Positions 864-64,000 of a stretch of DNA of 64,000 nucleotides are shown here, in pieces. The translations under genes were made by a program, and so were the position numbers. The notes beneath the pieces are model-generated. The model saw only the letters and a list, made by a program, of their open reading frames with translations, was not told the origin of the DNA and did no database searches. The stretch is from Pseudo-nitzschia pungens (Eukaryota > Bacillariophyta > Bacillariophyceae > Bacillariales > Bacillariaceae), in contig CM074769.1 of NCBI GenBank assembly GCA_037355855.1, positions 620,001 through 684,000 on the forward strand. Direction: 5' to 3'. The stretch's first letter is position 1; each line of letters opens with the position of its first letter.

Positions 864-3207
864 TTACGTCAAACTCATGAGCTCCCTCATAAGCAGTTCG
901 TCATCCTTCTTAACAAAGCGCCCTTTAACTCGTAGACGGCTATCTGCAAAGTTCTTGCGAACGTCGTATTTTACGGTCTTCGTCCACACTCGATGGTTTC
1001 TCTTTTCCAAGAAACGACCGATCCGGACCTTGCGACTTTCAGGAGAATACGCACCGATCCAACCATCGGGGCGTTCGACTTCCAGCAGTCCGTCTTCCCC
1101 AACCTTGGATTTAATATTTGGATCACTCATAGAGCGAGGTCGGCCCGACCCCGGAACGTGAACTTCTTTTTCTTTCGACTTCTCCTGTTGCTCCAGCACT
1201 TCCTTCTTTTTTTGTTTTTCTCGTTTGGCCCGTTCTTTCATTTCCTTCTTTTCTTGTTTTTCTTTTTCCTTCTGCTCCTTCTTCAACTGCCTTTCCTTTC
1301 GTCTCTGCTCCTTCAGTTTTTCTTTCGCAATGGCAGCAGCGGATGGTGGCTTCGGGACCCTGATTGTTGGAGGAGCTGATTTTCGTCTCGGAGGTTTCGG
1401 CGATTTTGTTTTGTTCTTGGATTTCTGTTTTTGTTGCTTCTGTTGCTTCTTTTGTTTCTGTTGCGTCAAAAGCTGTTGAAAGTGGTGCTGATGCTGCAGC
1501 TGTTGCTTCATGATTTGTTGTTGCTGCTGCTGTTGCTGTTGTGGTTGCTGCTGCTGTTGTTGTTCTTGTTCTTGTTGCTGCGATGACACCTCTGCTGGCC
1601 CAGACGATGACTCCATCCAGCGACCAAAATTTGCTTGTGTATCGTCGGTCTGATTCCCGATCAGTGGAGAAAACAGAGAGTTTGACCGTGATCTGAAGTT
1701 GTCGAGATCGATCGACATCGCAGAGTTCGCACGAGATCTATGATGTTGTTGCTGCTGCAATGCCAATTCTAACGCGGACCAAGTCGAATTTGCACGTGTG
1801 CGATTTTCCAGAGCGGACCAAGTTGAGTTCGACCGTGATCGAATGTCGATTTGATCTCCCTGTTCCCAATTACCAATGCCACCATCAAACTCAAGATCCC
1901 CGATTCCATCCGAAGCTACGGAACCGGTTTTGCCGTCTGCCATGTTATGAGCACCGTGTTGCTCTTTTTCCTTCACATTGAGAAAATCGAAATCCAATTG
2001 TCCCAACAAATCGATTTCTTCCGTTGCTTTGTTAGAAAGTGAGCCACTGTGCAGTATATCCTCTAGCATTGTCGCATCGCCCTGCTCATATCGATCAAGC
2101 GCATACTGAATTTCATTATCTTGCCCCGAAATGATTAAATCCTTTAAAATCCCCTTTTGATCTCTATTAATGATCCCCTTTTCTTCTAATTCCGTTGATA
2201 CTAACAATCGCTCCTGATAGACTCTATCAGATACGTTCAGCAAAGACAGACGGTTAGACAGCGAAACATTGATCGTTGCGGACTATTCGAAACATAACGG
2301 TACTCACTCCTGAACGAGGTCTTTTCCCAAAGTGCATCGTTTCGTAAGACGTAGACAAGCTAGTTGGCGGTGTGTGCGATAGTTGTTGTGTCAATGACAA
2401 TTCGTCGTCGCTTTCTGTCTGAGTTCTTTTGAAGACCTTGCTTGCTGCCACAGGATCCTGTATGTTATTCATGAACCATCCGCTTTCTCTAGAGGGTTGA
2501 GCAAAACTTGTCTGGTTGGCATTATTAGCCTGAATACGTCCCGGAGACAAGGATTTCTCTGGAATGGGCTGTAAGGGGTTGAAATTTCATCGCCGATGAT
2601 GGTTCTGTAATGCGTGCGTTACTTTCGTCGTGGTCATCCCCATTATCGTCTCCATCGTCCTCCATGACACCATCGGAGCTAGATTCCAACACACTCTCTT
2701 TGCTCGTGGACGCTCGATTCTTTGAGACGGAACTTTCTCCATCCGTGGTGGGAGTTGTGTCCATCTGATTAGAGTTTACAACACCGTTCATTCCTGCCAC
2801 ATCCATCGTCCCCAGGGTGACGGTGTCGACGGCATGGTCCATATCGCCATTCAATCCTGTTCTTCCGCTCTCGCTACCGGTATCAGTCATCGTCAAGTCC
2901 ATTTCATCTATCGCGTCGTCCTCTTCTTTTCGCGAATCTTCGCGGATAACCATCGTTCTGGTCCTCATGTTCCTCCACAATGTTTTGCGAGATCCACGAG
3001 TCGCTCGTTGGGAGAGGCGTCGTCTTCGCTCTGATAGCCAAGGCTTGTCTTTCGAAATTCCACGTCCCGGTCTCCAGGAAACTGATGACAGAGCCTCGGA
3101 AATTCGAATGCGTCGGCGTCCTTCTAATTTCCAATTCGACTTCGTTGAAAGTTTTCGGCCTTCCTAGTGTTTTGTTGTTGCTGTGAATGGTAAATAGCGA
3201 TTCGCAT
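864..3207 (-). CDS. CCT-domain transcriptional regulator (needs four +1 frame changes)
   Basis: The C-terminus is a clear CCT motif: a basic stretch containing RIGRFLEKRNHRVW, then YDVRKNFADSRLRVKGRF. CCT domains (CONSTANS, CO-like, TOC1) act in nuclear DNA and NF-Y binding. Before it lie a Lys/Arg/Glu-rich helix, a poly-Gln block (about 1500-1570) and Ser/Arg-rich repeats (RSRSNS, RANSTWSALE). A region near 2050-2240 contains the conserved-looking ELEEKGIINRDQKG. Upstream, an acidic Asp/Ser-rich N-terminus can be followed to an ATG at 3207 (MRIAIYH...). The pieces lie in four successive frames, each +1 from the last, near 3143, 2941, 2525-2620 and 2240-2290; the total length (2344 bases, 1 mod 3) fits four extra bases. 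For the third, a 211-base GT-AG intron (2569-2779) is an alternative. For the fourth, a 25-base GTGAGT...TAG gap (2283-2307) restores the frame but is implausibly short. The CCT end is secure; the 5' model is tentative. Confidence 0.72.
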
Positions 3208-4390
3208 CACACAGAATCCAGTTATGAAGACTAACCCCACGTACAGAATCTTGATTGCTTTCGTGCAACCACTCTGCAAGGGTTTGAATTGGGGGTATGT
3301 ACGGTAACTTACTGGTAATTACGGTATTGATGTGATGGATGCAGAATTGCTTAGGGACTTGTTCCTTTCTACTGCAGATGCACTCGTGAGAGCAAGCAGT
3401 AGGAACTACCGTAACTACTTCGAGGTAAACAATAATTTAAGTACAGAAGAAAATACTTCGTACTAAGGAGGGGAATGATGGGCACCGAACCGTAGGTTTA
3501 TCCGCGTGCAACAATGATATTGAGTCGAACGATCAGCACTGACCCGGTTGTGCACGAGCGCACATGTTCGGTCAAGCGCAGCAACCGGTAATCTTATGGA
3601 GTCGTACGTTCACGGTTCACATTCGTATGAAATAAATAATGTAACGTACCTGGTACGTCTCCTACCGGGTACTCGTACGTGGAATCAATCGAAATTCTGT
3701 TTGAGTAAACCTTAAGGTTAGCTACGAGTAAGGTTTAACCTTACATACCATGCTCGATCAGCTGACCAAGGGTTTTGATTTTGTACATCACGGATAACAG
3801 CCCTTTCAGAGGCAATGCGGTATGTAAAATCTTTACGAGCACGGGTAATAATGTTCTTGTGATCACGAGTAACCTCAATCGTTAAAAACAGGGGAACGAG
3901 TTCAGTACGGTACGCAGTAATACTGAAAGATTTCATTCGATGTAGTAGAGTTAGTACCATGTAGTGACGACGACACATTGTTGTACTATTGTTCTTGCAG
4001 ATAAGCAGTGTTCGCAATGTGAGAATTATTACACGTATGAAAATTCGATCTTACGAAAAGTTCAAGTTCTCTTCGTTCTTCTGAGGCAATGAATGAAGAA
4101 AGAAATTGTCCAAAACAACGTAAGAACGCGACCAAGTTTCCTTTCGGGATAGAAACGCTTATTTGCGTCACTGATCCCGCGTGACTTCTCGTGTTTCCCT
4201 TTGTTTACGGTAACTTATTTTGTATCGATAGTGACGTTCCAAATACGGTTACATACGGGTAGATACTACCGTACATGCAGAAAAGACCGGTCGATAGAGA
4301 GGTTGCAATCCAGGGTATATAGAAATTGTACAGATCCTACGTTAGGGCTCAGCATCCTTGGTAGTAGCACCCTCCATAGCAGCCTGTTAC
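3208..4390. other. intergenic region, no gene seen
   Basis: No convincing coding sequence. The stretch is rich in short GTAC-, TACCGGTA- and AAGGTTA-type words (for example around 3300-3330 and 3713-3740), which recur in other gaps of this window. Open frames on the minus strand at 3718-4171 are short, have ordinary non-coding composition and match no family I know. Confidence 0.5.
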
Positions 4391-4592
4391 AGCATCCTGC
4401 TAGGCTTCCTGCTTAGCATTCTGTAGGCTGGTGTTACTGCTGGGAACCAAGGTATGTACTAGCTAAAGACAATCCATGTTTACCTCGACAGCATCCTGCT
4501 AGGCTTCCTGCTTAGCATTCTGTAGGCTGGTGTTACGGCTGGGAACCAAGGTATGTACTAGTAGCTAAAGACAGAATCAATGTTTACCTTGA
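4391..4592. repeat. tandem duplication, about 99-bp period, two copies
   Basis: The word AGCATCCTGCTAGGCTTCCT begins at 4391 and again at 4490. Each copy continues through the same CTTAGCATTCTGTAGGCTGG segment and ends in a GTTTACCT word, with only a few substitutions and short indels between copies. No coding content; it lies between the CCT gene and the coiled-coil gene. Confidence 0.85.
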
Positions 4593-4865
4593 CAGCCTGT
4601 CGTTCCAATGCAAAGTTGCGATTAGGCTGTTACTTCTTGTCTTTCAGATCTTTATTGCTTTTCATATGGGCATGAAAACATCTGTCACAACGATTGTTCC
4701 TAACTAGCACGACCAATACAAGAACTAGTATCAAACTGTTAATGGAGCGAGGACATGGCTGTGCCGTTCGTTGTACCACATTATTATTGTTTGCACCGAT
4801 GAATAAACGATAACACCAACTATTTTATCTGTATTCAACTCCGTTCATTTTCCTTCATTGGTTGC
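4593..4865. other. intergenic region, no gene seen
   Basis: A/T-rich spacer downstream of the coiled-coil gene on the minus strand. It probably holds that gene's 3' untranslated region. No structure beyond simple words was seen. Confidence 0.4.
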
Positions 4866-6322
4866 TTATGGCCCGCTTTCCATATCATTGGAATCGTCCT
4901 CAACCAATGTAACTTCAATGTTTGCCGTGTGATTGTAATCTTCTTCTCCATTTGCATCCTCCACAGTATTTGCCGTGTGATCATAACCTCCGTCTCCGTA
5001 TGCTTCGTTTATCAGGTCGGTAGCATCGAGTGGTGACATGGAGGGGCTGGTATGCGACGAGATCACCGCATTTATCTTGTGGATCATGTCGTCTTCCGGA
5101 CCAGAAAGTTGAGAGCCGTGCTGCCCATTTTCAAGATGTCTGTCTTCATGGAAAAGAGGTTCTCGAGATTTGAGAAGGGAAAAGTCCACGTGCAACGACT
5201 GTATCTTTACTCTCAAGTCGTGGTTGTCTTCCAAAAGTTTCTGTATTTGATTTGTCTGGTGTTCGATCATTTTTTGCTGTTCGTTCATGATGGTTTGATT
5301 CTCTTTTATCAATTGGTGCTGCACGGCAAGAGTGGAATTCAACGTATACATCTGCATCTGCATCTTTGTGAAGAGCGATCCCAGATTCTCCTCCATTTTC
5401 GTTGATTGTTGTTTGAACAAATCGATCATGTTCTCCTCCGTCTTCTTTGCCATGAAGGACAATCCGGCCATTGCAGCGCCGAGATCGGACTGAGTGAGGG
5501 GCGGTTCCCTTCCCGCCATCGAAGTCGTCACCGACGGGTTTGAATTTCGCTGATTTTGCGGAACCCTTTCCATGTTTGCAGCCGCGACGGGCATGGACAT
5601 CACGGATGGATTCCCCTGGCTTCGTTCAACACCTTGCAGGTTTGGAGCCGCTGCGGGTACCTTCGTTGTCGTACCACCCGCATTCGGAGCCTGAGAATGG
5701 TTTGCTATTCTCGCGGTAAGCTTCATGAAATGGAGCTTCACGGATGTCGAATCCTTGGTCGAGGCAGAACTTGCGAGCTTGATCCTGAGACGCGATATGT
5801 TTCCGAGGCCCGCCCGGAACGACGCAAATAGCTCGGTGCCAGTCGGCTGTTTTCGGCATAGGATGTCTTTCCGTTTTCGTCCTTGTTCAATCTATATGGT
5901 ATCCCCTTGCAAGTCATCAGATACGTTTCTTTTCCGTCCGGGTTCGTCAAAAATATTTCGACAGCCTTCCCACTAAAAACGATTTGGAGACCCCCGAAGA
6001 AAAACGGGGAGTTGCGTTTGGAATCGGTGGAGGAGTTGGGAGGTACGGGCTCGATGTGCTCTACGATGAGGTGTGCCGGTGTTGGAATAGAGTAGTAATC
6101 GAGGCTTTCGTCATCGGCCGAACTTCCTGCAGTGCTCTCTTGCTTTGGCTGTAACAGAAACGAGGATTTTTTCCCTTTTTCTTGAAAGAGAAGTGCCTTT
6201 CCAGAAGTGTCATCTTTTTCGATTGTGGCGAGATTTCCGTTCGATGATGTTGTGAAACAGCAAGTCAGATGCGGTTTCGAAGCAGAATCGGCACGAGTCT
6301 TTGTAGTATTCGGATCCGACAT
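4866..6322 (-). CDS. coiled-coil protein with a conserved-looking VVPGGPRKHI segment (two +1 frame changes)
   Basis: Start ATG at 6322 (MSDPNTTKTR). Residues 1 to about 150 are Ser/Thr/Lys-rich and end in a segment containing VEIFLTNPDGKETYLMTCKG. Next comes a compact block, ADWHRAICVVPGGPRKHI followed by ASQDQARKFCLDQGFDI, then a Pro/Ala/Asn linker. A Gln/Glu/Met-rich coiled coil of about 90 residues follows (ending near KIQSLHVDFSLLK), and the C-terminus is acidic. The three parts are in three frames, each +1 from the previous. The changes fall near 5844 (an AGC CGA context) and near 5714 (TAC CGC GAG, giving a smooth FHEAY/ARIANHSQ join). No GT lies in the bases just before the first change, so a local intron there is unlikely. 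Length 1457 bases (2 mod 3) fits two surplus bases, giving about 484 residues. I do not recognise the family; the middle block looks like a small globular domain. Confidence 0.6.
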
Positions 6323-7014
6323 TTTTCCTCTCAATAGTATTTGCAAACGCTGTCAATGGCGATTGTCGGAGTGACCACTCGAACCAAGATCGATGTGTCG
6401 ACGGAAGCAATGACGGATACGAAGTAATCTTGCTTTGTCATCTCGAGAACTGGTAATCAGAACAGATAAATTGGTTGAGCCATTAGGCCTAAGGTTACCG
6501 TATTCTAAATTAATACCCTTACATGGACGACAAACTCTGATCCAAATTTTTTCGACCTATGCCCAGAATTTGTTTTGTTGTGCCATAGGATGTTGTAATC
6601 ATACCGTGAGTGTACCCGATGGTACGCGTGTGACTTGTAAGATACTAGCAACGCTAAAAAACAAAGTATTGAGTATTGAGTAATATTGAATAGTCACAAG
6701 ACAAATCTCCTTATTTGCTTTCAACTGGAACACTGGAACGGACTTCTGTTGTTCCAACGCTTCTGTTGTTCCAATGACTAACACTAACCTGTCGAAACCA
6801 CTATCTTTTCCCATCACATTCTTTTCATTTCTGTGACGTGCGACGCATTTGGCCGATCGATCGAAACTTGTGCGGAGCGAAGAGATCAGGTCGATTCTTT
6901 CTTTTGATTGACAGCAGAAGCATCGAAGCTCAAAAAAAGGACACATTTATGGTACACGTACCCGTGTCCTCGTCGTTCATTATTATTTTGTGAAATCCGC
7001 CGTGCCTCTCTTCG
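6323..7014. other. divergent intergenic region
   Basis: Lies between the 5' ends of the coiled-coil gene (-) and the DUF229 gene (+), so it should contain both promoters. It carries an AAGGTTACCGTA word near 6490 and an inverted CCAACGCTTCTGTTGTTCCA word pair near 6750. No coding sequence was recognised. Confidence 0.4.
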
Positions 7015-9756
7015 ATGGATGGGCAGCGCGGAATCGATCGCATGAAGCAACGGGTTCGACGGCAAGAGCCGCCACAGCCATGGCAAAAGGAAGCAAGATG
7101 TCAGCGTTCATGGAACTGCGGCGCGAAAATATTGTACCTCCAAGTTTCGTTCGTTATTTTGTCGTTCCTTTTCTCCCTGACATGTTCGTTGTTGTGGTTT
7201 CGGGTGGATTCCATGCGAATCGGTTCCGATCTCGTCGATCGCGTCTCGAAAGCCGCTGTTTTCCCCCCCGCACGAGTTCACGAACCGAAATCGGTCTTTC
7301 ATCAATCAACGCAAGAAACGAAAGCGCATCAAACATTCTCGGTGGATCAAACCCATTCCGCAACACAAAACAACAGTGTTGTTGTTGTTGCCGGAGCCGT
7401 CATGAGCGAGTTCGCTTGCAGAGTTTTGTCGCGACACGTCACGAGCTCGAACGTTCTCGTTGTTGCACCCGGTGCCGTCTCGCTCGCTCTCGCAGCCACA
7501 GATCCGAATCACGGGCATGACGGCGATGGTGCGACTCATCGAGAATCCGTTGGAGCTGCTTTTCTTCGGGCCGGTGTGGCAGAGGGCCATTCCATTCATG
7601 CGATCAATGATAATGGGTCGAGGGAACAACCATACACCGGGAACCACCAACCAACATTGGATGATTGGTGGAATTCGTTTGGGAACGTTGGAAACCAAGA
7701 TGATGCTCGAAATTTTGCCACAAATTCCGAGTTTTGGTTCTCTACCAACCCAAATGAAAAACCGTCATGGATCCTTCTTGCAGTTTTTGATTCCGCTTTT
7801 GGTTCGGGGGACTATTTGTGGAAGAAGGCTAGTTCATTCTTGGAAGAATGCACGGTGACATACATCGTTGTTGCTATACATTCGGTCAAACTCAAGGATG
7901 GATCTTATCGGTTTTGGGGTCTAAATGCAGTGGAGTCGCTTCTGCGGAGGAGATACAAAATACAGAATTTATCTTGCTCCCATTATCATGCAACACACGG
8001 TGATGCAAGCGACACTTTCGAACGATACGGCCCGAATGCCCTGTTTCAATCAGTTGAGCAGGTGAAAGACTTTCTTCGGTGGGGAGCCGATGCATCAGAA
8101 GTGTACGGAGAATCAACACAGCACGACGTTTTCACGAGTTACATTTTTGCGACCCAAGGCCTCGATTTGGCTATTCCGACTCCGCAAATCTATCTCGAGC
8201 AAGGAGGGACGGAAATTGACGTGTTCAGCATGCACGACATGAACCATCTTCCGCCACTCAAGTCATGCCCCGAAGCAGAGAATTACGACAAGTATTTTGA
8301 CTTTGACTTTGACGAGGTCAGTGAACCTTCATGCGTCTACAGTTCGACCTACTATTATTTCGGTTGAGGCCATTATTGTTCGCTCACTTTTCTTCTCTTC
8401 GATCAATGCGTATAGAATTCTTTGCGACTACAACTCTCCGACGAAACATTCATAGAATATTCGCTGGAGAAAAGCGGGGAAGGGCTCAGCGAGGAATTCT
8501 CAATTTGGATGAATGGGAAGACCCTGTTGGAGTCGGAAGCTATTTGCATAAAACACAGAACTGGTCTGGCCAAATGCAAAACTCGAATCGCTGATGGCAA
8601 CATCCCGAAGAACATTGTTTCTGGGAATAGTCAGAGCCCCAATGTTCTGTTGATTCTTCTCGATCCAATAAGTAGGCCACATTTCGATCGCGCAATGACA
8701 AAAACGAAAACCGTGCTGAGTGAATTGAACTTCACGAAATTCGGAAAATACACAGCGGTAGGGCCAAATTCAGGACCCAACCAGGCGGCCTTGTATTCGG
8801 GTATCAAGTTGAAAAATCGAGGTGATCTTCACAATCATCTCGGTGCCGATGAGTGGCTATGGGATCGATTGAGGGCGGCAGGTTACGTCACGTTAAAAGC
8901 AGAGGATAGTTGCATCGAAAACTCGAACATGATGCAGAGCCTTGCACCAAATACGACGCATGGAAGTGCTCTAGAAGGACTTTTTTGTTTTGACGCTTTC
9001 TCTCGACCAAACTGCATCGGACCGGACCTAGCTTCATCGATTCTTTTCGACTATGGAGAACAGTTCATATCCACGTATGAAAACTTACGAACGAATACTC
9101 ATTCCAACTTGCGATGGGCTTCGTTCATGCACTTCATCGATAGTCACGAGGATACGATGATATTATCAGCTAGCCTTGATCCGGGTCTTTCACAATTCTT
9201 GAAAAATATGGCAGAAAAAGGTCATTTTGAGAATTCAGTAGTCATCCTAACCTCGGATCACGGCCTTCACTACGGACCGAACTTCCCGAGCAGGAAAGGT
9301 CGTCGAGAAGCAACGGAACCCATTCTATACTTGCACATTCCGCCGTATCTTCGCCATTCAATTGACATGGATACGCTGATTTCGAATTCTCGTTTATGGA
9401 CAACACCATTTGATGTACATGAGACAATACTTGAACTCACCCAAACTTCCTCGAAAAGTTCAAGTGGTCTTCGAGCAGGCCACACCTTGACGAATCATCT
9501 CCCCAAATCGAGAAGGGAGTGTAAAGAAAACTCCGATTTGATTCCAACGACATATTGTGATTTGCAACTGAACGAGACAATAAAAGACGACAACGCTCAT
9601 GGTTTTTGTGGAGTTCCGAAAAGGATGCCTACAATTAATTCTTTCTTTATGGATATCCCTCCGCTGAAACGGCGGCCCTTGATGAAGTTGGACAGCAAGT
9701 GCCGTGATGAGAAGCAACAATTGTCAGATGGCAGCATCTGTAGTAAATATGGTTGA
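7015..9756 (+). CDS. membrane-anchored DUF229 (alkaline phosphatase superfamily) protein
   Basis: Two exons, 7015-8316 and 8416-9756, joined by a 99-base intron (GTCAGT...TATAG). It removes in-frame stops and joins FDFDE to NSLRLQLSDE in phase 0, giving about 880 residues. A short basic N-terminus is followed by one hydrophobic segment (residues about 40-62, VSFVILSFLFSLTCSLLWF), a type II signal anchor. Exon 2 carries the DUF229 (PF02995) pattern: PNVLLILLDPISRPHFDR near its start, then NQAALYSG, LRAAGYVTLKAEDS and VVILTSDHGLHYG. The Asp and His residues of these motifs correspond to metal-binding positions of the sulfatase/phosphatase fold. The gene probably acts in the secretory pathway or at the cell surface; the substrate is unknown. 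Neither exon contains a frame change, which makes it a useful intact control. Opposite-strand and shifted frames here are shadows. Confidence 0.85.
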
Positions 9757-11908
9757 AGTTTGTTTTTACCCGCTCCCATAATTTGCCTCATACAAGTGAC
9801 AGGACCTGATTTTCGTAGGGAATAAGGTTTCCCCAAGTACCACTAGTATCTGTTTAACTCTCAGACTCACCCAAGGTTGTGGGTTGTCGTTGCTTCGAAT
9901 GGAACAGAAGTCGTTTCATGCTTCGGTCTACTGGTCTTATAGAACGACGTGTCCCCGTGGCTTCAACTCAATCGTGTTGCGCGTCTAGGCTTCTTTCGCT
10001 GGGCTTGTCCCCTTATTTCGATTCAGTCGTTTCTTACTGTTGTATCACCACTGTTGTCCTCTTGTTACTGCTGATGCTCTTTCGTTGGGAGGCACGGCAT
10101 CTGATGCTCTTTCGTTGGGAAAAACGGCATCCATGCCTAGACTTGGATGTAAAAGAACCATCTGACTTCCCAGAGCTAGGGGACGTCGCACGGTGGGCAT
10201 TCTTCCGCTGGCCCTACTAGAAGGGGAACCTGCGGGAGCGCTCTGCCGCGTCCCCAGGACGTTAGGAGAATCGCCACAACGCGATAAGAACACCACCGAC
10301 GCCAGGACGCTGGCCGGAGCCCGGAGGACGTCAAAAGCTTGGTCAGCAGCGGCATCCATGCCTACTCTTGGAAGTAAAAGATCCATCTGATGGATGTAAA
10401 ACTCAGCTGCAAGTGCCTGTTGTGGCCTCTTTGACAAACATGGGGGCCAGTCTATTTGGAATCGGGGTTGGCGCCGCTTTCGCGGTTGCGTTCGCGTTTT
10501 TCGTTGCTAGCGAAACGCCCAGGAACGGATGCCCTGCTGTGGAAGTCCAATTGTTCGGCGATCGCTTCTTGGTGTTCCACCGCCGAGGCCCAAAACGGGT
10601 TGTTGCAGATGCTTCGAGATTCGTTGGCGCTGGCGCTTTCACCATTGAACAACAGCCGACGCTCCGTGCGTTCAACAAGAAGGGGCGCCACAGTGCCACA
10701 AGCCTGCCGTTCGCTTCCAGCCCGAGAGAATCGGTGCCCCCGGTCAACGGACTGCAAGGATCGTCTTACCACAGTCGAGGTGTCGTTGTCGTGAGTTCGC
10801 TGTCTGTGATACAAGAAGAAGGGACGCCGCCTTGTCCCCGTAATTGAAGACCGTTGCTCTTGAAAGGCCGCCGGAATGCCATCACCAAGGGGTGTACCCG
10901 TGGTGACTTCTCATAATATGGTTCAATGCGTTCATTCCGGAGCATGTCCTTGTAGAAACAATAACCACTCCCCCCGGACTCACCTGGATGAGAAGGAGGT
11001 TGCGTTGCACTCAACAGCCTTCAAGCTCATCAGGAAACCATGTCAAAGCAATTGAAACGAAAACACCATGGAATTTAAGCAATAACAACTCCCCGCCGCC
11101 GTTGTCCCCGTTGAGTTAAGGACCGAGAGCAGGAGCTTTCTCGGGCCCTCGCAATTTAGACAGTAGTAAGTCGCAATTTAAACAATAACAACCCGCCCCG
11201 GACAGCTCGTACGTCCCTCTGATTGTAGATTCGCAACAATTCCACGTCATTGTGTTTGCTATTCGTCCTCATGAGCGCCGCGGCAATACAGACGCGTCCT
11301 TGGCGAGATCGCAAAGCCGTAGTCGCCGAATGATTCGGACTCGAGTGCGTAATTCAAACAATAACAACCCCCCCCCCCCCTGGAGCAACCCGGACGCAAA
11401 GGAGACCCTGTGGCAAGGGGAGAACTCTCCCAGGCGCCGAAAGAAGTGGCAAAAACGAAAATAGACTTAACTGGCAGCAGCCTGATAAGGGTGTGTTTTT
11501 CTGTCTACGGAATTTCTTTCACTGACTTAGTCACTCAAGGAAGGGGGAGAAGTCCAGGGCATGTGGTCTTCAGTATTCTTCGTCCGTGTAATAGCTTTCA
11601 TTTTGTGTCCGATGGAATAACCGCTGTCGCCCACCTTAATATGTCTGACGAGACTAAAGATTCGCTGCGCATTGAATACATCAGACGAATGGAAAGAGGA
11701 CACTATAAAGTTCGATGAAAGAACTCTAATCTGAAAGCTGAGAGACAAAGACGGAAATCTCGAATTACGCTTTCCACCCGAGTGCATTTTTGTTGCAATA
11801 TGGGACTGCTCAAAACAATTTATTCTATCTTTCACTTTGATAGCGGCACGCAACAATAGATCATAGATAAGCATTATCGCGACGTGGTGCGCAATCTAAA
11901 TCAGTTTG
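9757..11908. other. repeat-bearing region without a supported gene
   Basis: Several 100-160 codon frames occur on both strands (for example plus 10368-10847 and minus 10045-10747). They overlap each other, lack motifs and follow repeats, so I do not call them. A 30-bp tandem duplication lies at 10071-10130. A word near GGCATCCATGCCTA followed by AAGTAAAAGA recurs at about 10127 and 10350. A CAATAACAAC word followed by a C-rich run recurs near 10960, 11080, 11190 and 11360. The region may be a decayed element or an unrecognised gene with frame changes. Confidence 0.35.
10071..10130. repeat. 30-bp tandem duplication
   Basis: CTGATGCTCTTTCGTTGGGA occurs at 10071 and again at 10101. Each copy is followed by a related 10-base tail ending ACGGCAT. 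Confidence 0.9.
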
Positions 11909-12934
11909 TTATTCCGCCCATACCAAATTGTCGAAAAACTTTTTCCCGGTTTCGACTCCGAGAAACAAAGCAGCATTTGCCGGAAACGCACGTATTAATG
12001 TCGGTCCGAGGCCCGCATAGAGACCACCTACTCCTCGTTGCTTTGCAATTTTGATCAATTCGGGAAAGTAACTCCCAACGACCTTCGTGTCGTATCGGGA
12101 TTGAACCTTTTTGTTGTTGAAATCAAGACAGAAACGAACGAAGAAAATTGTCAGAATCATGGATCACCTTCGAACGCTCACGGAATTCATTTGGTTTGGT
12201 CTGTCACAATTACACGTAGCGAGGGAAAAACTCACATTCGTCTTTGGTACATCAAAAGGCATGGCAAAAAGCCAACCCCCCATTCCCGCAATACCGCCAC
12301 TCAGGAAGTAGTTCAATTCATCCGGCATGCTCGGAACAAACGTTCGGAAGCAATAGCACGACAATTCATAACCGCCAAAGAACAATGCGTAGAACGACGA
12401 GTCCCGAGCGAGCTGGGCATCAAAGCCCACAAAAAACGACCTCAAGCCCTGCCGTTTCATCATTTCTCGAACAATTTGTTGGGAGGTGACGTGACGTTCC
12501 GTCGAAATTTGCGTCTTGGCCTTGACAATTTCACTGGGCAACAACACCGTTGCCGAGCAGCAACCAGTTATGGCACCCATCGCAAATGGTTTCCAGAGAC
12601 TCGGCGGTCCATCGGTAGAGGCACCATCGTCGTTTGTATCCGGAAAGGCGCGCTTCAATGCTTCGTTGACACCAAACGCCATGCAATTCTCCAGAATCAT
12701 TCCTCCCGAGGTAGGCAAAGCTCCTTTCCAAAAGGCCGTGATTCCTTCGTTCCTCAGAATCGAAGTGGTAGAACCAAAGACGGTCGAAAACCGATCCGGA
12801 CTGGTCTGCATTCTAACCTTCACGGTATCGAACGGCTGGCCAACATAACAGCAACACACGCTTCCGATCGATGCCGAAAAAAGGTCTCGGGTTACGGCCC
12901 GAGGCTCCAGTACATCCTTGTTAACCTCGCTCAT
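11909..12934 (-). CDS. mitochondrial carrier (SLC25) family protein 1
   Basis: Exons 12236-12934 and 11909-12106 are joined by a 129-base GTGAGT...AAG intron in phase 0 (PKTN/VQSRYD). Start ATG at 12934 (MSEVNKDVLE); about 298 residues, the usual size for the family. The three repeats of about 100 residues each carry the signature: PFDTVKVRMQT, then PSEIVKAKTQ, then MPFDVPKTNVQ, each following a glycine-rich transmembrane helix. These proteins sit in the inner mitochondrial membrane and exchange small metabolites. The signatures resemble amino-acid or carboxylate carriers, but the substrate cannot be told from sequence alone. The gene is intact, with no frame change. It runs divergently from TIMELESS with a gap of about 2.4 kb. 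Confidence 0.9.
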
Positions 12935-13851
12935 AATATTAATCAATCAAGGATCTTGTTATGAATGGATTCCTCGATACGTTGTATCTTCTGCAGTACT
13001 ATCGTCGTATATATTACCTGCCTCTGCGGATGGTCACCAACAACCTCCAACCATGTCACGGTTCGAACGCAGTTTGTTTTTCCACAACATATATTGCGAC
13101 AACCTCCCCCCACAAGAAATCTTTCGACGGCAACGTTTGCAAGTGATTGTCGTACGTACGTTGTCCGGTTCCGGTACTTGTGCATTCTCATCCCGACCCG
13201 ATGATTGATGGGATTCATTCAATTGTTGATTTTTGTTTCCAATCATTTTCCTCCTCTCGGTACACGTACCGTAGTCCCACTCTGCTCGTACCGGTAATTA
13301 CGTATTCATGTTATGAGCTCAGTGGTTATGCTTTACGTAAGGTTAACGTACTACCGTGCTGCACTTTCAACTTGTGCTTCGGACATCGAACATTCAAAAG
13401 AAAAAACACGACCTAAGTTACAGACAGGTTACAGAGTGAACTTTACTTATGCCCGCGTCAGATCGCTCTCTTGTTCACAAGCGGATTTTAATCATTCAGT
13501 CTGATTGTTCTTTGGTTCCCACTTCCCACGGCTATCGATTGAAAGAAGTCAGGTTCAAATCTGTCGCTCGAGTTTCCCAAGGAGAGCGATCCACATCTTC
13601 CGCTCTAGCTTCGCAAGGCAATCGATCAAGATCGCTATCTTGTTCATAGTACTACTGAGCAGATTAATCCAGATAGTTCTTTGGTTCCCACGGCCATTGA
13701 TCGGAAGGAGCCAAGTTCGAATCTGTCGGTCGAGGTTGTCTAGTTTTGCTTCGTTTCGTTTCTGCGCAATATTGAGTTACATTCGACGGCTTTGTTCCTT
13801 TCCGTTAAGTTCCGTTCTGTTGCACCACCTTGCCTACTACTTTGCCACTGA

Positions 13852-13910
13852 ATCGAATCGAATCGAATCGAATCAAATTGAAGTGAATTGAATTGAATTG
13901 AATTGAATTT
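13852..13910. repeat. GAATC/GAATT pentanucleotide array
   Basis: A run of GAATC units turns into GAATT units with few interruptions, upstream of TIMELESS. Confidence 0.9.
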
Positions 13911-13972
13911 GGGTAGGATCGTTTCGGGCCGTTAGTTAGTCAGTTAGTTAGTTCAGTGAAGTGTTGGGTGGT

Positions 13973-14006
13973 ACCAAACCAAACCAAACCAAACCAAACC
14001 AAACCT
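13973..14006. repeat. CCAAA pentanucleotide array
   Basis: Six to seven perfect ACCAA units in a row. Confidence 0.9.
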
Positions 14007-14064
14007 CACCGGAACCGCTCCCGTTCCTCATTTGCCGCAATGTAAGAAGGGACACCACAACAGC

Positions 14065-14098
14065 AACCACAACCACAACCACAACCACAACCACAACA
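14065..14098. repeat. ACAACC hexanucleotide array
   Basis: Five to six perfect hexanucleotide units. Confidence 0.9.
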
Positions 14099-14924
14099 AC
14101 GGCGAGGACGAGGACGAGTGGTTTGTATGCAGTCGAGTCGTCTTTTTCCACATAGCACACCAACCACACTGCAACATAGCATAGCACAGTACAGCATTGC
14201 AAACTAGCATCCTTGGTGGGCATGAGCGATGGGCAAGAGTAGCTGCGATCCATCCATCCATAATTACATATAATATACATACCGGTACATGCATTCCATA
14301 GATCCAACCCGCGACGAGAGTTACCAACCAACCGCGACTAGCGCCTACTTCACGCAACCTAACCGACGAGTGATCGATGCAAAACCCACAACTACAAAAC
14401 TGCACCTACCGCATCATGAAACAATGATACTGATTAACTTACGAAGTATTCCATATGACGCGAATTGCGAGTTTCCAGTTTCCGATCGGAACCCCGCATG
14501 TGAGTGAGTCCCGAGATCGGTTCGCGCCATTTTATTTTGGACGTGTTCTACATACACAAGAATACCTAAAACATACTTCGTACTACTTGTACTTGTAATT
14601 CTACTTCATACGAAGTAACTTAATTACTCTCAACCTTCTGTCCCAATTGACAATGCTGATTGCGATCCTCGTACTATTGTAGTAGTGGAAAAAGGAAGGA
14701 ACCACGGCCCGCCAAAACTGGATTGAGGCGGAAGGTATTGATTGAGTAAGGTTTATGTAAGCGAGTACGAAGTGAAGTACAATACTCGTTGGGTTACCGG
14801 TATGCAAGCCCACTTGTGTTGGAAATTGGAAAATAGTTTTGGGCACACAGCATGTGCAATAGGATGATGATGAGACTACAACACACAACGCACAACACAC
14901 AACAAACACTAGTGCAGCGCAACC

Positions 14925-14962
14925 AACACCAACACCAACACCAACACCAACACCAACACCAT
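14925..14962. repeat. CCAACA hexanucleotide array
   Basis: About six hexanucleotide units about 340 bases upstream of the TIMELESS start. Confidence 0.88.
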
Positions 14963-15301
14963 TACCAATACCAACACCGACCGCAATAACAAGCTTTGTT
15001 CTGTTTCTGTTTCTACTTCTATTCCTATCCATATCCATATTCATATCGATACCGAACACGGATACCCGCCCTTTTCTCGAAAGAACAATACGGCATTCCT
15101 ATTCTTACCTACACCCGAACTACTATCGGCACTGCACCTTTACACGTTCTGTAATAGAATTCGTATTGCCATCCAGATTCTGAAGCCAACCCTCTGGCTC
15201 TTGCGTTGAATATTGAACATTGAATTCATTCCCGATTGACAACACGTTGCACAACGTCGTCTGCTTCCACTGCCACTGCCGCCGCAGCGAGGAACAAGAA
15301 C

Positions 15302-18300
15302 ATGAACATGAACAGGAACAGGAACCGCCCCCCGGAGGATCGCGGCCCGCAAACGCGCAACGACAACCATGCCATTGCGGTAACTCCCCAGTCCAAACAC
15401 AAACAACAGCCCAAACACAAACACAAATCCGCATTCCTGCGCAAGCGCTCAACCAGCACCCCCCGCACCTCCCTCGATCGCCGCATGTCCGTCGACAAGG
15501 AAATCGTCGACGAACTGCTGCTGGTCTGCGGAGTGATTGGCACCACAACTTCGATTGCATCTACATCTGCATCTACTTCGAAATCGAAATCTGGTGCTCA
15601 TTCCCACGACGGCAACGACCAGCCAGCGCTGATTCCCGTCACGGACTGCCTCAACTGGCTGCAGGACCTCCAGCGGGCCCTCCGCCGCGACGAAGACTTG
15701 TACCGGCCCATCTCGCTGCTGCTGGGCCAGTGGAAGATCGTCGAGCAGAAACTCCTGCCGCTGGTGGTCTCGTGCAAGTACGACACGCCGCTGGTGGTGA
15801 CGGTCCTCAAGATTCTGGTCATTCTCACCAAGCCGCTGGCGGAAAACACCCAGCGGGCGGGACAAATGGTCATCGACGTGAACCACAAAAGCAGAAGCGG
15901 CAGCGGTAACGGCAACAAGAACGAGAGGGACGACAAGGCCAAGCGAGCGGTGGTGGAGCAGCAGATTCGCCTCCGCGAGAATGCCCTGGCGCAGGCCGAG
16001 CAGCGGATGGAGTACAAGCGGATGGTGGCCTACTGGTCGGCGGGCAAGGCGTCGGGTGCGCGCAGCGCTTCTTCGAACGAGGACAAGCCGGGTGGCAGCA
16101 GCAACAGCTGCAGCAGGAACGACAACAAGAACGGCATCCTGTCGGTCTTTGTCTCGCTGCTGGCCGAGCCCTTGTCGAGGTCGGGGGCCTCTCGGACCGA
16201 CGCGGACCACCTCACGATCGAGTTGGTATTGCACCTGATTCGGAATCTGCTCTCGGCGCAGCCCCTTCTCAACAGTGAGTGAAACCAAACGAAATGAATT
16301 GGAATGAAATGAACTGAACTGAAATGGAATGCAACAGAATCGATTCCTCTTGTTTTTGTTTTGATTTTGTTTTGTGCTAGGACTGTTTCTCACCGAGGAT
16401 TTTTTGTTGTTGGTTTTGTTTCTTCGTTTGCCTCCAAATTTGCTTCTGCTTCTGCTTTTGCTTTCGCGTTTGCTTTCGCGTTTGCCTTTGCGTTTGCCTT
16501 TGCGTTTGCCTTTGCGTTTGCCTTTGCGTTTGCCTATGCGTTTGCCTATGCGTTTGCTTTCGTTTCCTTGTGGTTCCGTCGCCCCACAGCCTCCCCCGAG
16601 ACGTCCCGGATGGCCGCCCGACTCCACCAGGACATGATCGTGCTCCTGGAAAACGAGCTGGTGCTGGAAATCCTGTTGGTGGTCGGACAGGACCTGGAAC
16701 TCCGAGAGAACGCCCAGTACAATCTCCTGGTGATGGAAATCCTCCACCACCTGATACGGGCCCAGGATCCCACCGCCGTGGCAAAGAGTTTTTTCGTCGG
16801 GAACACCGCGGGTGGAACCTGCGGTGGAAGCCGAAGTGGCAAACCACCATCGTCGTCGTCGTCGTCGGTCCTGGCCTCGATGCGCCTCCAGGAAAAGGCC
16901 CAGCGGAAGAACCTTCGGGGGGTCCGCCACGGACACTTCTCCGGAACGTGGATGCGCAAGCAGGCCGACGGCACCAAGCGGTTCGTCAGCGCCGTCGAGG
17001 CCGTGAATGGAAACAACAGCAGCAGCAGCAGCCATGGACCCTTTCGATCGGGCAGCAGAAGCAGCCATTCCCTGCGCAGCGGCCGCCAGTCCGAGCCGTT
17101 CATCGGATCGGGCCGGACCCTCAAGGTCCACACCAAGAATCCGACGGGCGCCATGACGCACACGAGCGGGCCGTCGGCGGTCCGGGCACACAAGACACTC
17201 CACAAATTCTGCGAGCGGTTCGTCGCCGACTGCTACGGGCCCTTTGCCAAGTCCCTCAAGAACGAGTTTCGGAGGGATTCCCAGCGACTGGAGGAAAGGG
17301 ACAAGATGGTCTTCTTTCCGGCTCGTCTGGTTCTTTGCCCAGTGGTCCCGGGCCAGAAAGACCAAGAAGACCGCCACCGACAATGCCGGCATCGGAAAGC
17401 TCATCATCACAATGGACGTCTTCACCTTCCACCTGGTGCTCAACGCCGCCGAGACGTACCACCAGCAAAAGAAACCCACCAAGCTGGCCGCGGCGGTGGC
17501 CGTCTACTCGGAAATGATCCACCTTCTCTACCGAATGTACCACAACCCAGACGATCCCACCGAGCACGACATGGCCATCGGGCTCATCGACCGGCTCTTC
17601 TACCACGGACAAGGACGCCCTCGATCCGCTCCCCAAGCTCTTGGCACGGTGGACGCCGGGGACGTCCACACGCGAGTACCTCTGCGACCTGGTCGAGATT
17701 GCCCACGTTTCGCTGAAATTGCTCGAGGCCAACACCAAGGAGGGCATCGAGTTTGTTCGGTCCAAGTCCGCCGGTGGAAACGGTTCGGCAGCGTCGGGCG
17801 TGGTTTCCCAGAAAATCGCCAAGATGAAGACGTACGCTTCCACGTTCGACGCCAAGCAGTACTTCGCCAAAAACATTGTCTCGAACAAGCTGGTGACCAT
17901 GTACACCTATCTCATGGACCAGTACAAGGTCAACGCGGCCGTGGTCAACCACCGGATCGTCACCATGTTTCGCCGCTTGATGCGCTTCGAGATTGCCACC
18001 CCCGAGGTGGTCGAAAACGAGACCGACGACCTTGCTCCCGCGAATCCGCTCGGGATCCAGCGCACCACCCTCGAGCCGATGCTGTACAACCTCCAGGTGA
18101 TTGTTGCAATGGAACGAATCCTCAACGACTCTTCCATCCGAAACGACGCGAGCTACGAAGCCGCTCCTGCAGCTGTGCACGGGTTTGATGCACGGGTTTT
18201 GGTGCGCGGCCGATTCCAATCCGATGCTGTACGTCGAGTGCCTCTTCCAGAACGCGGGGTACACGCCGCACCGGTTCTGCGAGGCTTTCACCAACAAGTA

Positions 18301-18772
18301 CGTGACGGAGGAACTCCGCATGATGGCAGAGCGGGAGCAGCTGGCGGAAGAACAGGAACGGCTCCTTTCGGACGAGACGGGAGGAGCAGCGACAGCAACT
18401 GCCAATCGTGACGACGACGAAGACGACGACGACGACGAAGCGGAGCACGAATTCACGGGAGACGCGGTTGTCTCTCCGGGAAAAACTGCTGGGGCAGAAA
18501 CCGACAGTGCCGTGACTACGGAACAAGAACCGACCAGCCAGGAATCTCCCGGAGCGGATGCGAGCTCGGTCGAAGCCGAAACAGCAGGAGAGGATTCTTC
18601 TGTAGTTTCCAAGAAAAAACAAACGCAAAAGCGGGGACTGGAGGACGACAGCTCGGACGACGAAGCCATTTTCGGATTCCACCACAGAAGAAACCCAGCC
18701 CTATTGCGAAGCGAAGAAAGCACGTCCTGGACGATGACGATGACTGACAGTGACGACGATGATAACGAATGA
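15302..18772 (+). CDS. TIMELESS/Tof1/Swi1 replication-fork protection protein (three +1 frame changes)
   Basis: Exon 1 runs 15302-16274 (ATG in the NMNMNRN stretch). A 315-base intron with GTGAGT and CCCCACAG ends follows, and exon 2 begins at 16590. The TIMELESS N-terminal domain starts near CLNWLQDLQRAL and continues with PISLLLGQWKIVEQKLLPL and TPLVVTVLKILVILTKPL. After the intron come an LLENELVLEILLVVGQDLEL helix and a SGTWMRKQADGTKRF segment. The core FFRLVWFFAQWSRAR block resembles the fungal Swi1/Tof1 FFYLVAWFLEAER-type sequence. The C-terminus is acidic with an ELRMMAEREQL helix. Three places require a +1 step: 17285-17335, 17600-17632 and 18125-18180. The blocks on either side are clearly one protein, about 1051 residues. 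It stabilises paused forks and aids checkpoint signalling and cohesion in the nucleus. Confidence 0.85.
16440..16562. repeat. hexanucleotide (TTTGCN/TTTCGCG) array inside the TIMELESS intron
   Basis: About twenty imperfect 6-base units of the TTTGCG/TTTGCC type fill the second half of intron 1 and stop just before the splice acceptor. The open frames they create are artefacts. Confidence 0.85.
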
Positions 18773-19496
18773 TAAGGACGACGAAGGAAGCAAATCCTCT
18801 TAAAGATTTCGGCCCGGCACGATCGCAAAAGGAATGAGATTAAATGCACACAAATGTTATCGTTGTCGACGTATGAATGAGCTCGTCATTCCCAATCCAA
18901 TACTTACGTCGGGGAAAAAGGTGCGGAATCAATCGGGAAATCAAACCGATGTGGACTCGCTTTGAATCGACAGGGGACTGAACTGGATAGTATTTGTTGA
19001 CGAAGAGATGAATCTAGGGTCTGCAACTTCTTGAATTCTGCTACCTCCTACTACCAATCCGCACTCGATCTAAGAAAACAAAGACGGAATTAGGAAACCG
19101 AGGTAGTAGCGACCGTCTTCTCGCAGCGGACTCTTTTTCGACATTAATTGTTGAGAAGGTCATGCAAAAAGGAAATAGAACGGTCTATGTCATAGTGAAC
19201 GATAACAAATTCAACACTAAATCAGTATAAACAGGTTTTTGAATTTGAACGTCGGAGTAGCTATGAACGTCTTCTCGTAGTTGATGAGGAACGACAAAAA
19301 GTGACCTTCGGATTTCAAGTCGAAGCCATTCAACGTTTTTCCGTAATAGTTCATGAGGTACTACAGAAATTGAACCGAGGACTTCAAGTTGAAGACATTT
19401 AAGAATACCCGTGGAGAGAAGGATTAGTGTTTGCCATCCGGATCGTTCCTAAAGCATGTTCGTTCCCTGGAATGGAGTGGTGGGCTCATCTTGAAG
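18773..19496. other. intergenic region with a diverged 68-bp tandem repeat
   Basis: Holds the TIMELESS 3' end and spacer. Around 19263-19400 two diverged copies of a unit of about 68 bases follow each other (GAACGTCTTCTCGTAGTTGA and CAACGTTTTTCCGTAATAGT, each ending in TTCAAGT-GAAG-CATT). No gene was seen. Confidence 0.5.
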
Positions 19497-38596: not shown

Positions 38597-38631
<35 letters not shown>

Positions 38632-54483: not shown

Positions 54484-55853
54484 CTAGTCTTCGAGGTTCC
54501 GCGTCCAATCGAAGGCCTTCCACCGCTCGGCAAACTCGGCGACCAGCCGTTCCTCGAACCCGTTCGGAAACCGTTCCTTGCGCCGGAACCGCACCGGATC
54601 CAGTCCCATCATCCCCGCCAGCGTGTCGAGCCCGAACTCCCTCGGAAATCCCGACGACGACGACGACGACGACTCGATGAGCTGCGCGCACCCGGTGGTG
54701 GCGGTTCCGGCCGAGGTTCCCCCAGTCGACGCAAAAGTACGGAAACCGCTTGGGCAGGACGGACCGCAGCGGTTTTTGCGGCGTCGTGGGCAGGAGCTTG
54801 GCGGTGTGGGTCCCGAATTCCGCCGCCCGCTCCTCCATGGCGGACCGGAAAAAGAGGGGGGCGTCCCCGAGCTCGGCGAAGGGGACCGGGACGACCTCGA
54901 CGCGGGTCTGCCAGAGGCTCTTGCCGGGCAGGACCGTCTCGCACAGGACAAGGCCCCTTCCCTTCAGGGCGTACATGTTCTCGAGGCTCTTCCGAAAGCG
55001 CCCGAGCTCGTCCCTCACGCCGGGATCGTCGCAGTCCACCATCGACGGCGCGTGCTTCAGCGGGACTAGGTAGAACTGGTGGCCGGGCTCCAGGGAGGCG
55101 CTCGGCGGGGCCATCATCAGCGCCACGTGCTTTCCGAGGGCCAGCAGCCGGTGTTTCGCAAAGCTCGACGATTGGATCCACCAGGAGCACATCGACGTTA
55201 TGGATTCTTGCTTGCGGTAGCGATCGATCCGCCGCAGGCGATCCCGCCGCTCCTCCTTCTCGAGGTGTTTGGCGTTGCGCTTTCGTTCGCTCCCGGCGTG
55301 GTCGTAGTAGTCCGGCAGGTGTTTCTTCATCGTTTCGACCTCCTCGTCGCTGTCGACGGCCGCGGCCGTTCGTTCCTTGATCCTGCGCTTCTTGCCGACC
55401 CGGACGATGCTGCGCGCCATGTGCTCGTTCCAGGACATGGAGTGTTCGTGGTCTCCCCCCATGGATCGCTCCCTGGCCGCCAATTCGGACGCGGTCATGT
55501 CCTCCTCCCGTTTGTGTGCAGCGGGCATCCCGGGAGGACCCAGGACGATCACGGTGTCGTTATCGTTCTCGTTGCCGGGGGGAGCGGCGGAGGTGCCTCC
55601 AACCACGCGTTCCATGTACGACCTGCTGCTGCCACCACCGTCTTGGAGTGGAACACCGGAAGCAAGCGCTTGTTTCAGTTTCTCCGCCACGGAAAGATTC
55701 GCTGCGTTGCTTTTGCTTGCTGCTTCCACCACCGCTCTTTCTCGCCGCATTCGCACTCGCATCCGAAGTCGTGTCGTCGGAGGACCGAGGAGGACCCCGC
55801 TCCTTCTTGGCCTTTTTCTTTTTGGCCTTGCCCGTCCGAATTCCCGAGAGCAT
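54484..55853 (-). CDS. CWF19-like splicing/debranching factor (two +1 frame changes)
   Basis: ATG at 55853 (MLSGIRTGKAKKKKAKKE). The basic start is in one frame. The main body from NLSVAEKLKQALASGVPL is in the +1 frame (join near 55700-55725). The last about 70 codons are another +1 step on (join near 54690-54725). Length 1370 bases (2 mod 3) fits two surplus bases, giving about 455 residues. The CwfJ C-terminal domain 1 (HIT-like) is SSSFAKHRLLALGKHVALMM, then LEPGHQFYLVPLKHAPS and KGRGLVLCETVL. Domain 2 begins FPYFCVDWGN and continues after the shift with GCAQLIESSSSS and FPREFGLDTLAGMMGL, matching the YFsVdfG...HvIE..FP..FG pattern of CWF19. CWF19/Drn1 proteins act with the lariat debranching enzyme in the nucleus. 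The second change sits inside a conserved domain. Confidence 0.85.

Positions 55854-61878: not shown

Positions 61879-61880
<2 letters not shown>

Positions 61881-61913
<33 letters not shown>
61881..61913. repeat. GA dinucleotide array
   Basis: About sixteen consecutive GA units. Confidence 0.95.
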
Positions 61914-61917
<4 letters not shown>

Positions 61918-62176: not shown

Positions 62177-64000
62177 ATGCTTTCGTCCCAGCGATCCATC
62201 GCCGCCAGCAACGCGGTGATCGAGCAATCCGGGCGGATCCTAACGGCAAAGTACCTCAAAAAGGCAACCAGCAAGGTGAGTGAAGCGAAGCGAAGCGAAG
62301 CGAGGGGAATGGATGCAGCAACGAATCGAATGCCCGATCGAGGCATCGAGGAGGAGTCGTGGAGATTACGGCGCTTTCGGGCTGGATTGCAATTCAGTAG
62401 TGCGGTGCAGTGCAGTAGTGCAGTGCGGTGCATTCTTCCCACGGTTGCAATGCATGCATTGCCTTTTGTTCCGCCTCGACCTTGTGCATGGTGCAATCAT
62501 CGTCCGATGTTTCTCGCTGTCTCACTCCCGCCGTTGTTTTTGCAACGCCAATTGGTCTGACTCTTGGATTCTTTGGATTCTTTGGATTGGATTGGATTTG
62601 TCTTTCCACCAACGCATTCTTGCATGCATGCATCTCTGTTCTTGTCGTTGAACTTCGCATCCCGTGTGTGGTTTCCAAACACAATGCAATGCAACACAAC
62701 CACCGTACCGTATGCTGGTATGGCATGAAATTGTATGGTATTGGTGGTGCCACTCCACTCCTCCAAACGAAACCGTCCGCAACACACTACATTGCGAACG
62801 CACAATCTCGATCTCGCATTCCGAATCACACCGCATTCTGCAAACGCAATTTATACCAATCACCAATCACTCATTACTGAATACAATGTCAATTGTATCA
62901 TTCGCAATACCCAACAAAACAATCCGCAATTCACAATACGCAATACAAAATACGCAATACGCAATCCGCAATACCCAATACGCAATACAAAATACAAAAT
63001 ACGCAATATACAACACTAACAATCCTCAAAACAAAATGCACAATACGCAATACGCTATGCAAAACACTAACAATACACAATCCACAATCCACAACACCGC
63101 GCAATCCGCAATCCGCAACGCGCAGAAGGACCTCGCGCTCCGCCTCCGGACGATCCTCCGCTGCCTCCGGGAGGACGAATCCGTCGAGCCCGACGACCCG
63201 GTCCGCTTCCCCGGCCTGGCGGCCCTCTGCCACGCCCTCACCCACCTCGTCAACCACCGCGACAAGGAGGTCCGGCTCTACACGGTGGCCGCCTGCATGG
63301 AACTCTTTTGCGTCTACGCCCCCGAGGCGCCCTGGAACGAGGAGGAGACCCTCGACATTTTTAAGCAGACGATCCGGCAGCTGGCCAATCTGGGGCACAG
63401 CCGCTGCGGCGGCGGCGGCGGAGTTGCTGCTGGCGGCGGCGGGGGAGACGGCGCCCACTTTCACCAGTACTACCGCATTCTCGAGCTGCTGGCGGAGGTC
63501 AAGATTGCCGTTCTGCTGGTGGATCTCTCCAAGAAAAACGGGAACGACCAGCAGCGGCGACGCGGAACACGATCACCGCAAAGGGAGAGACGACAGGGGC
63601 AGCGGCAGCAGCAGCAGCAATAGTAGCAGCAGCGACAATAGTGATGACGACGATGATGATGATGACGACGACGACGACGATGCCACAAATACCAGCGACA
63701 GCAATGGCCACCCCCAACGCAAGCCGAACGCCACCAGCGGAGGCCGGAGACGTTCCAGCCGAGTCTTGGCTGCCACAAACTCCAAGAACAACACCAACAC
63801 CAACAACAAGATCAATAACAACAACAAGATCAAGAACAAGAACAGCATCAACACGGAAGCCCTCCAGGTGCTGTCGGAACTCTTTCGGACCCTGCTGCAA
63901 TCGGTCCGGAACCAGCATCCCCCGGAACTATTGGACTACTGCCAGAAAACCCTGACCTCGTGCATCGAGGAATTCTTCGAATCGACCATCCTGCCGATTC
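62177..64000 (+). CDS. PDS5/Spo76 cohesin-associated protein, 5' part (probable +1 frame change)
   Basis: Exon 1 is 62177-62275 (MLSSQRSIAASNAVIEQSGR...), followed by an 850-base intron from GTGAGTG at 62276 to GCGCAG at 63125. Exon 2 starts KDLALRLRTILRCLRED. The HEAT-repeat start matches PDS5: ALCHALTHLVNHRDKEVRLY, then VAACMELFCVYAPEAPWNEE, LDIFKQTIRQLANLGH, and YYRILELLAEVKIAVLLVDL. From about 63545-63620 the frame must step +1 to enter an acidic linker and then EALQVLSELFRTLLQSVRNQ and CIEEFFESTILPI, which continue past the window end. A 73-base GT-AG segment (63623-63695) would also restore the frame, but it has a weak donor and no pyrimidine tract. PDS5 regulates cohesin loading and release on chromosomes. 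The gene is partial because of the window edge. Confidence 0.83.
62880..63118. repeat. degenerate CGCAATAC-type array in the PDS5 intron
   Basis: Some twenty-five imperfect units of 8-10 bases (CGCAATAC, CACAATCC, AAAATACG variants) fill the 3' part of intron 1 up to the acceptor. The open frame through them is an artefact. Confidence 0.85.

Follow-up and report, generated by a model that had tools for sequence, protein, structure and literature searches.

Several genes in a 64,000-nt stretch of a genome assembly deposited for the diatom Pseudo-nitzschia pungens (GCA_037355855.1, contig CM074769.1, positions 620,001 to 684,000; C12:620001-684000 in our numbering, hereafter the window) can be read through only by stepping forward one base inside continuous coding sequence. 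We conclude that these +1 steps are very probably assembly errors of some kind, and we propose, at a probability of about 0.62, that the surplus bases are mainly pairs of alleles written side by side when the genome of a heterozygous, diploid Pseudo-nitzschia was collapsed into one assembly, so that the cell itself would do no recoding. This proposal draws on the +1 steps themselves, their absence from relatives, an insertion bias in the errors of the assembly, and an excess of synonymous letter pairs at the 11 sites that could be placed with a close homologue.

We placed these 11 sites by protein-to-DNA alignment, allowing codons, four-base and two-base steps (these two at roughly equal penalties) and GT-AG introns, using P0121 as the reference for TIMELESS (seven sites), P0241 for a CCT-motif gene (one site) and P0003 for mitochondrial HSP70 (three sites). 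An initial annotation of the window, made from the sequence alone, had described about twenty frame changes in eight genes, all in the +1 direction. Such steps are present in the sequence, and each one placed with a close homologue was +1, but the counts for some genes needed correction. TIMELESS, for which three steps had been claimed, aligned over residues 2-1080 of the 1080 in P0121 and required seven +1 steps and a single intron but not one -1 step. Its features are as follows:

15257..18800, + strand: TIMELESS gene, with one intron and seven +1 sites (Pfam PF04821 match, protein-to-DNA alignment)
16275..16589, + strand: GT-AG intron of TIMELESS, without a frame change
17314..17319, + strand: +1 site 1, Phe codon; the surplus base lies inside this interval and P0121 is continuous there
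17611..17614, + strand: +1 site 2, Gln codon (P0121 alignment)
18158..18160, + strand: +1 site 3, Glu codon (P0121 alignment)
18676..18678, + strand: +1 site 4, Gly codon (protein-to-DNA alignment)
18699..18702, + strand: +1 site 5, Pro codon (protein-to-DNA alignment)
18744..18745, + strand: +1 site 6, Asp codon, with a stop as the following 0-frame codon
18768..18769, + strand: +1 site 7, acidic tail, also with a stop as the following 0-frame codon

Conversely, four steps had been claimed for the CCT-motif gene, where alignment under equal penalties needed a single +1 step and an intron of 85 nt but no -1 step; the other claimed steps correspond to this intron or lie upstream of the start near 2953:

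864..2953, - strand: CCT-motif (CONSTANS-type) protein gene, aligned to all 658 residues of P0241
2214..2298, - strand: 85-nt intron of this gene, with an alternative donor at 2307
2572..2578, - strand: the single +1 site of this gene, in alignments to P0241 and P0242

With three +1 steps and no -1 step in the mitochondrial HSP70 gene, which lies outside the window on contig C11, the three genes together gave 11 +1 steps and no -1 step. The claim that only +1 changes occur holds for these sites and for those protein-family splits that were read by eye and not classed as introns or gaps (below). It does not hold for a self-trained coding hidden Markov model (HMM) run with equal penalties and no homologue as guide, which called 10 +1 and two -1 steps across the window. 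Of the two -1 calls, the one at 10453 adjoins a dispersed repeat. In 200 kb of contig C1 the same model called 13 +1 and 16 -1 steps, a result that we did not use as evidence, the model being too noisy in such repeat-rich DNA. The dispersed repeat, at window positions 10454-11577, took up all but one of the 49 listed matches to window positions 1-20000, as short pieces found genome-wide at 76-96% identity. A further argument of the initial annotation, that total gene length modulo 3 equals the number of steps, is circular, because any chain of +1 steps that closes on a stop satisfies it.

The extra base was absent from the close relatives P0121, P0241 and P0003 at all 11 sites. The relatives examined were 88-95% identical to the affected proteins and kept a single frame across the sites; P0241, for example, is 92% identical to the CCT-motif protein. 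The nearest relative of TIMELESS, P0121 (MMETSP1060, taxid 37318, Pseudo-nitzschia pungens; we take MMETSP to be a transcriptome collection), was 88% identical over 99% by BLASTP and 92% identical in a multiple alignment, and the next nearest, P0122 with the label Psemu1, was 61% identical. Nine of the ten proteins aligned to mitochondrial HSP70 showed 88-94% identity; the remaining one, P0001 at 64%, was continuous as well. Some of the HSP70 relatives came from long contigs (P0005, 25,777 nt; P0033, 2.1 Mb) that are probably genomic DNA. Among the relatives examined for HSP70, TIMELESS and the CCT-motif protein, the +1 sites were not conserved.

To see how far the steps extend, we searched the whole genome (66.9 Mb in 28 contigs) with eight Pfam families (PF00118, PF00225, PF00012, PF00501, PF00133, PF00176, PF00069 and PF00270), scoring a part of the candidates for PF00069 (117 of 225), PF00501 (14 of 30) and PF00270 (34 of 100). 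HSP70 matches at C5:5852094-5853649, which ran through several frames with many stops, and rpoB rows from C25, C27, C28 and C7:4788 kb, which are plastid copies kept for the error control below, were set aside before counting. Most matches were whole or divided by intron-size gaps; split pairs with gaps of at least about 65 nt were counted as introns by their coordinates, and the sequence was fetched for some of them. Outside mitochondrial HSP70, eleven non-intron steps were read by eye, and all eleven were +1, with one (L046) ambiguous. They fell in chaperonin CCT delta, theta and zeta, mitochondrial HSP60, a kinesin, an SNF2 protein (two steps), an acyl-AMP ligase and three kinases. At nine of these places, the best alignment to relatives in the PDB crosses the step without a gap. 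Twenty stretches behind truncated matches, also read by eye, were mostly GT-AG introns or N gaps and yielded the +1 sites L039 and L047 as well as the ambiguous L046; L038 and L033 were classed as introns from a donor-like GT, with the acceptor unproven. Two pairs of SNF2 domains had equal scores at distant places on one contig (C11:1027741 and C11:1213396; C1:4235414 and C1:7541809), and each may represent a segmental duplication, mobile elements or haplotypes that were both retained.

The acyl-AMP ligase (L037, C4:1499260-1500500) contains a TAA in addition to its +1 step, at a position where relatives presumably have Gln, so that it may be a pseudogene, a damaged allele or the site of another consensus error. 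It is the pseudogene-like case that would be expected if the extra bases were real one-base insertions in the DNA, either in decaying genes or in one damaged allele of a heterozygote. We regard this explanation as very unlikely, given that TIMELESS carries seven steps while its protein is otherwise 88-92% identical to its relative, that core chaperonins are among the affected genes, and that decay should bring deletions and stops too.

At 10 of the 11 close sites, there are two adjacent unlike letters, either of which can be removed to give the same protein. TIMELESS site 7 is the sole exception. The Gln site of TIMELESS is an example: its four letters can be read as either Gln codon, and the P. 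pungens relative has Gln at exactly this position. The pair can be a transition at eight of the 11 sites. The expected share of sites with a synonymous pair is 0.43 for random insertion, 0.40 for duplication, 0.52 for four-base codons, and 0.73-0.80 for pairs of alleles of a single-nucleotide polymorphism (SNP).

We compared these models by log-likelihood over 20 sites, comprising the 11 close sites and the nine distant sites placed with PDB relatives, whose placement is noisy; the second site of L034, L046 and two steps in a CWF19-like gene (below) were too poorly placed to be included. The SNP-pair model assumes a transition weight of 4 and retention of 15% of non-synonymous changes, a spectrum that we chose. 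It scored -32.7 over the 20 sites (-33.2 with a transition weight of 2), compared with -36.5 for four-base reading and -37.5 for random insertion; errors of the PacBio continuous long read (CLR) type scored lowest of these, at -39.1. On the 11 close sites alone, the scores were -17.9 for SNP pairs, -19.1 for CLR-type errors, -21.6 for four-base reading and -22.1 for random insertion. The close sites therefore part SNP pairs well from recoding and only slightly from generic CLR error.

These data bear on whether the steps reflect +1 ribosomal frameshifting, be it programmed or general, or else four-base decoding during cytosolic translation in diatoms. Such recoding would account for steps that are all +1 and that occur in conserved genes (chaperonin CCT subunits, mitochondrial HSP60 and HSP70), and at the nine distant sites SNP pairs give no better fit than four-base reading. 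We nevertheless consider it very improbable. The relatives keep a single frame, the bias towards insertions belongs to the assembly, and synonymous pairs occurred at 10 of 11 sites versus the 0.52 expected under four-base codons. In addition, the next 0-frame codon is not a stop at nine of the 11 close sites, and the four-letter words differ from site to site, with no common word or codon found by inspection, as distinct from a formal motif search. GATG and CTTGG, seen early on at several sites, were rejected as shift words when the required residues put the step elsewhere. A narrower proposal, that cytosolic ribosomes of this diatom lineage sometimes read a four-letter word as one codon if its third and fourth letters can stand for each other, NNX and NNY being synonymous, with doubled wobble letters tolerated in essential genes, is equally implausible and is disfavoured by these observations.

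A control for the errors in this assembly came from a plastid-type rpoB gene, which is present in about ten places. The copies L059 and L064 match exactly along 1596 bases. Compared with L059, four other copies contained 29 insertion events, six deletion events and 10 mismatches (insertions to deletions: L060, 3:0; L061, 2:1; L062, 2:2; L063, 22:3). All 10 mismatches are in L063, and L061 and L062 have one insertion and one deletion in common. Among single-base insertions in the poor copies, 22 of 24 equal a neighbouring base. The uncorrected errors of this assembly are thus insertion-biased, and because insertions dominate them, frame changes in one direction are the expected look of residual errors. 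For this assembly, the earlier expectation that random errors would run in both directions therefore fails. Of the two explanations that had been offered, systematic one-base insertion error is supported, and +1 frameshifting on the scale of Euplotes is not. Plastid-type gene copies (rpoB and photosystem II genes, and probably dnaK and groEL) were found at about 5.85-6.01 Mb on C5, at about 4.79-5.20 Mb on C7, and on C23 and C25-C28; they thus occupy places close to the ends of two large contigs as well as small contigs, and their error rates are highly unequal. From the genes present, these redundant copies appear to be of plastid origin.

The same bias raises the question of whether heterozygosity is needed at all, since generic PacBio CLR insertion errors could have survived in the consensus wherever polishing failed. 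The 29:6 ratio and the 22 of 24 insertions that match a neighbour are what such errors would leave, 10 of the 11 close sites could likewise be duplications of a neighbouring base, and this model trails SNP pairs by only about 1.2 log units on the close sites. We consider generic CLR error the main rival explanation, less likely than allele pairs but separated from them only in part. Synonymous pairs were found at 10 of 11 close sites where duplication predicts a share of 0.40, and the summed log-likelihood was lower (-39.1 versus -32.7), a difference owed largely to the noisier distant sites. Four placed sites, namely TIMELESS site 6, L005, the first site of L034 and L037, have no neighbouring duplicate among the deletions that fit. 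A 29:6 ratio also predicts a few -1 steps among about 20 sites, with a chance of about 0.02 of seeing none. Finally, of the nine repeat pairs on contig C1 that are at least 97% identical and longer than 500 bp, the five that are at least 99.6% identical (12,799 aligned columns) contain no single-base gap, so that generic error looks low in C1. Homopolymer error alone was rejected as insufficient in view of the four sites without a fitting neighbouring duplicate; it scored -29.5 versus -14.4 on the nine distant sites, and -21.5 on the 11 close sites, where it tied with four-base reading.

The history of the assembly offers a route by which allele pairs could have arisen. It contains two runs of 500 N, the gap length that 3D-DNA writes, although N may equally stand for withheld sequence, and its matches to nuclear families fall on contigs C1-C12, of which eleven have known lengths of 2.3-9.7 Mb. 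It is probably the published P. pungens assembly of 67.11 Mb, with 12 chromosomes, 62 scaffolds and a BUSCO score of 80.53%, which was built from PacBio CLR data at 261x with Mecat2, Pilon and Juicer/3D-DNA from a genome with 0.82% heterozygosity (PMC11499653). In noisy CLR alignments, a heterozygous SNP may take the form of one insertion and one deletion, and a consensus that kept both alleles next to each other would contain one surplus base. Short-read polishing would then leave both letters, since roughly half of the reads would still carry each of them, while errors at homozygous places would be polished away. The residue would be +1 only, at heterozygous positions, and mostly at third codon positions.

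Several points weigh against allele pairs. Heterozygosity at any given site is only inferred, from the sequence signature and the assembly controls. At the nine distant sites, a synonymous pair was found at four, against a random expectation of 3.8, and a transition pair at three; on these sites four-base reading (-14.9) and SNP pairs (-14.7 to -14.8) fit equally, and most of the summed difference between SNP pairs and CLR-type errors stems from them. On the 11 close sites, the lead of SNP pairs over CLR-type errors is small, as noted above, and 10 of these sites are also explicable as duplications. A model of a SNP beside a run was the best of all on the close sites (-13.9) and worse on the distant ones (-22.6). 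In the four less similar C1 repeat pairs, at 97.1-98.8% identity, single-base gaps number 1, 5, 4 and 6, respectively, and may reflect true divergence. A second haplotype copy of window positions 1-20000 was not seen among the 39 of 340 candidates scored, in a weak search that also failed to return the window itself among the matches listed. In addition, P0121 is only 88-92% identical in TIMELESS, which leaves the species name less than certain, and the published assembly has 62 scaffolds (PMC11499653) versus the 28 contigs here. Because of the separation of about 1.2 log units and the gaps in the four less similar repeat pairs, we lowered our probability for allele pairs from 0.68 to 0.62 and came to view generic CLR error somewhat more favourably than before.

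The window contains further genes with steps that are less precisely placed:

54484..55853, - strand: CWF19-like gene with two +1 steps (Pfam CwfJ_C_1, frames, and a read-through aligned to CWF19L2 in the PDB)
54691..54715, - strand: C-terminal +1 step of this gene, placed to this interval only, with flanking matches in Pfam and the PDB
55676..55739 (approximate), - strand: N-terminal +1 step of this gene, in low-complexity sequence, placed by frames only
62652..63999, + strand: PDS5-like gene (Pfam PF20168) with a candidate +1 step near 63549, in low-complexity sequence, from the coding HMM

The two CWF19 steps that had been annotated are both +1, one with Pfam and PDB support and the other by frame only. 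No reading frame could be assigned to the Cys-rich region at 41.6-45.7 kb. At window positions 26958-28208, a perfect 626-bp tandem duplication extends into an EF-Tu/eEF1A-like gene; it could be an unresolved haplotype join instead of a true duplication.

If recoding were true, it would to our knowledge be the first example, ciliates aside, of nuclear genes in which non-triplet decoding is frequent. Among the papers listed for this topic (15 of 905 and 8 of 329), no title or abstract opening dealt with frequent +1 frameshifting of nuclear genes in diatoms; one listed paper on diatom organelle genomes reportedly mentions ribosomal frameshifting. Known +1 frameshifting of the antizyme or yeast Ty type uses a defined slippery word, usually at one site per gene; the direction is the same here, but the words vary and one gene carries seven sites. 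The word "frameshift" does not occur in the main text of the P. pungens genome paper (PMC11499653). Consensus errors of the kind proposed here could hide genes, and an effect on the BUSCO score given in that paper (PMC11499653) can be conjectured. Euplotes, to which the scale of the changes had been likened by the initial annotation, resembles our case in that many genes require +1 steps. However, its frameshifting takes place at stop codons, mostly after AAA (PMC10235951), and the comparison fails because nine of the 11 close sites here lack a stop; the relatives, moreover, lack the step. A closer parallel to the allele pairs that we propose is the collapsed PacBio assembly of the diploid Trypanosoma brucei Lister 427, in which nearby allelic variants caused wrong read alignments and led to indel errors and truncated open reading frames (PMC8445201). 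Those errors were found with reads and phasing, unlike the errors proposed here, which are inferred from a sequence signature and assembly controls. The available portion of that account describes neither a +1-only bias nor synonymous codon pairs (PMC8445201), and one-directional frame changes at synonymous positions may serve as a signature of adjacent allele pairs in collapsed long-read assemblies.

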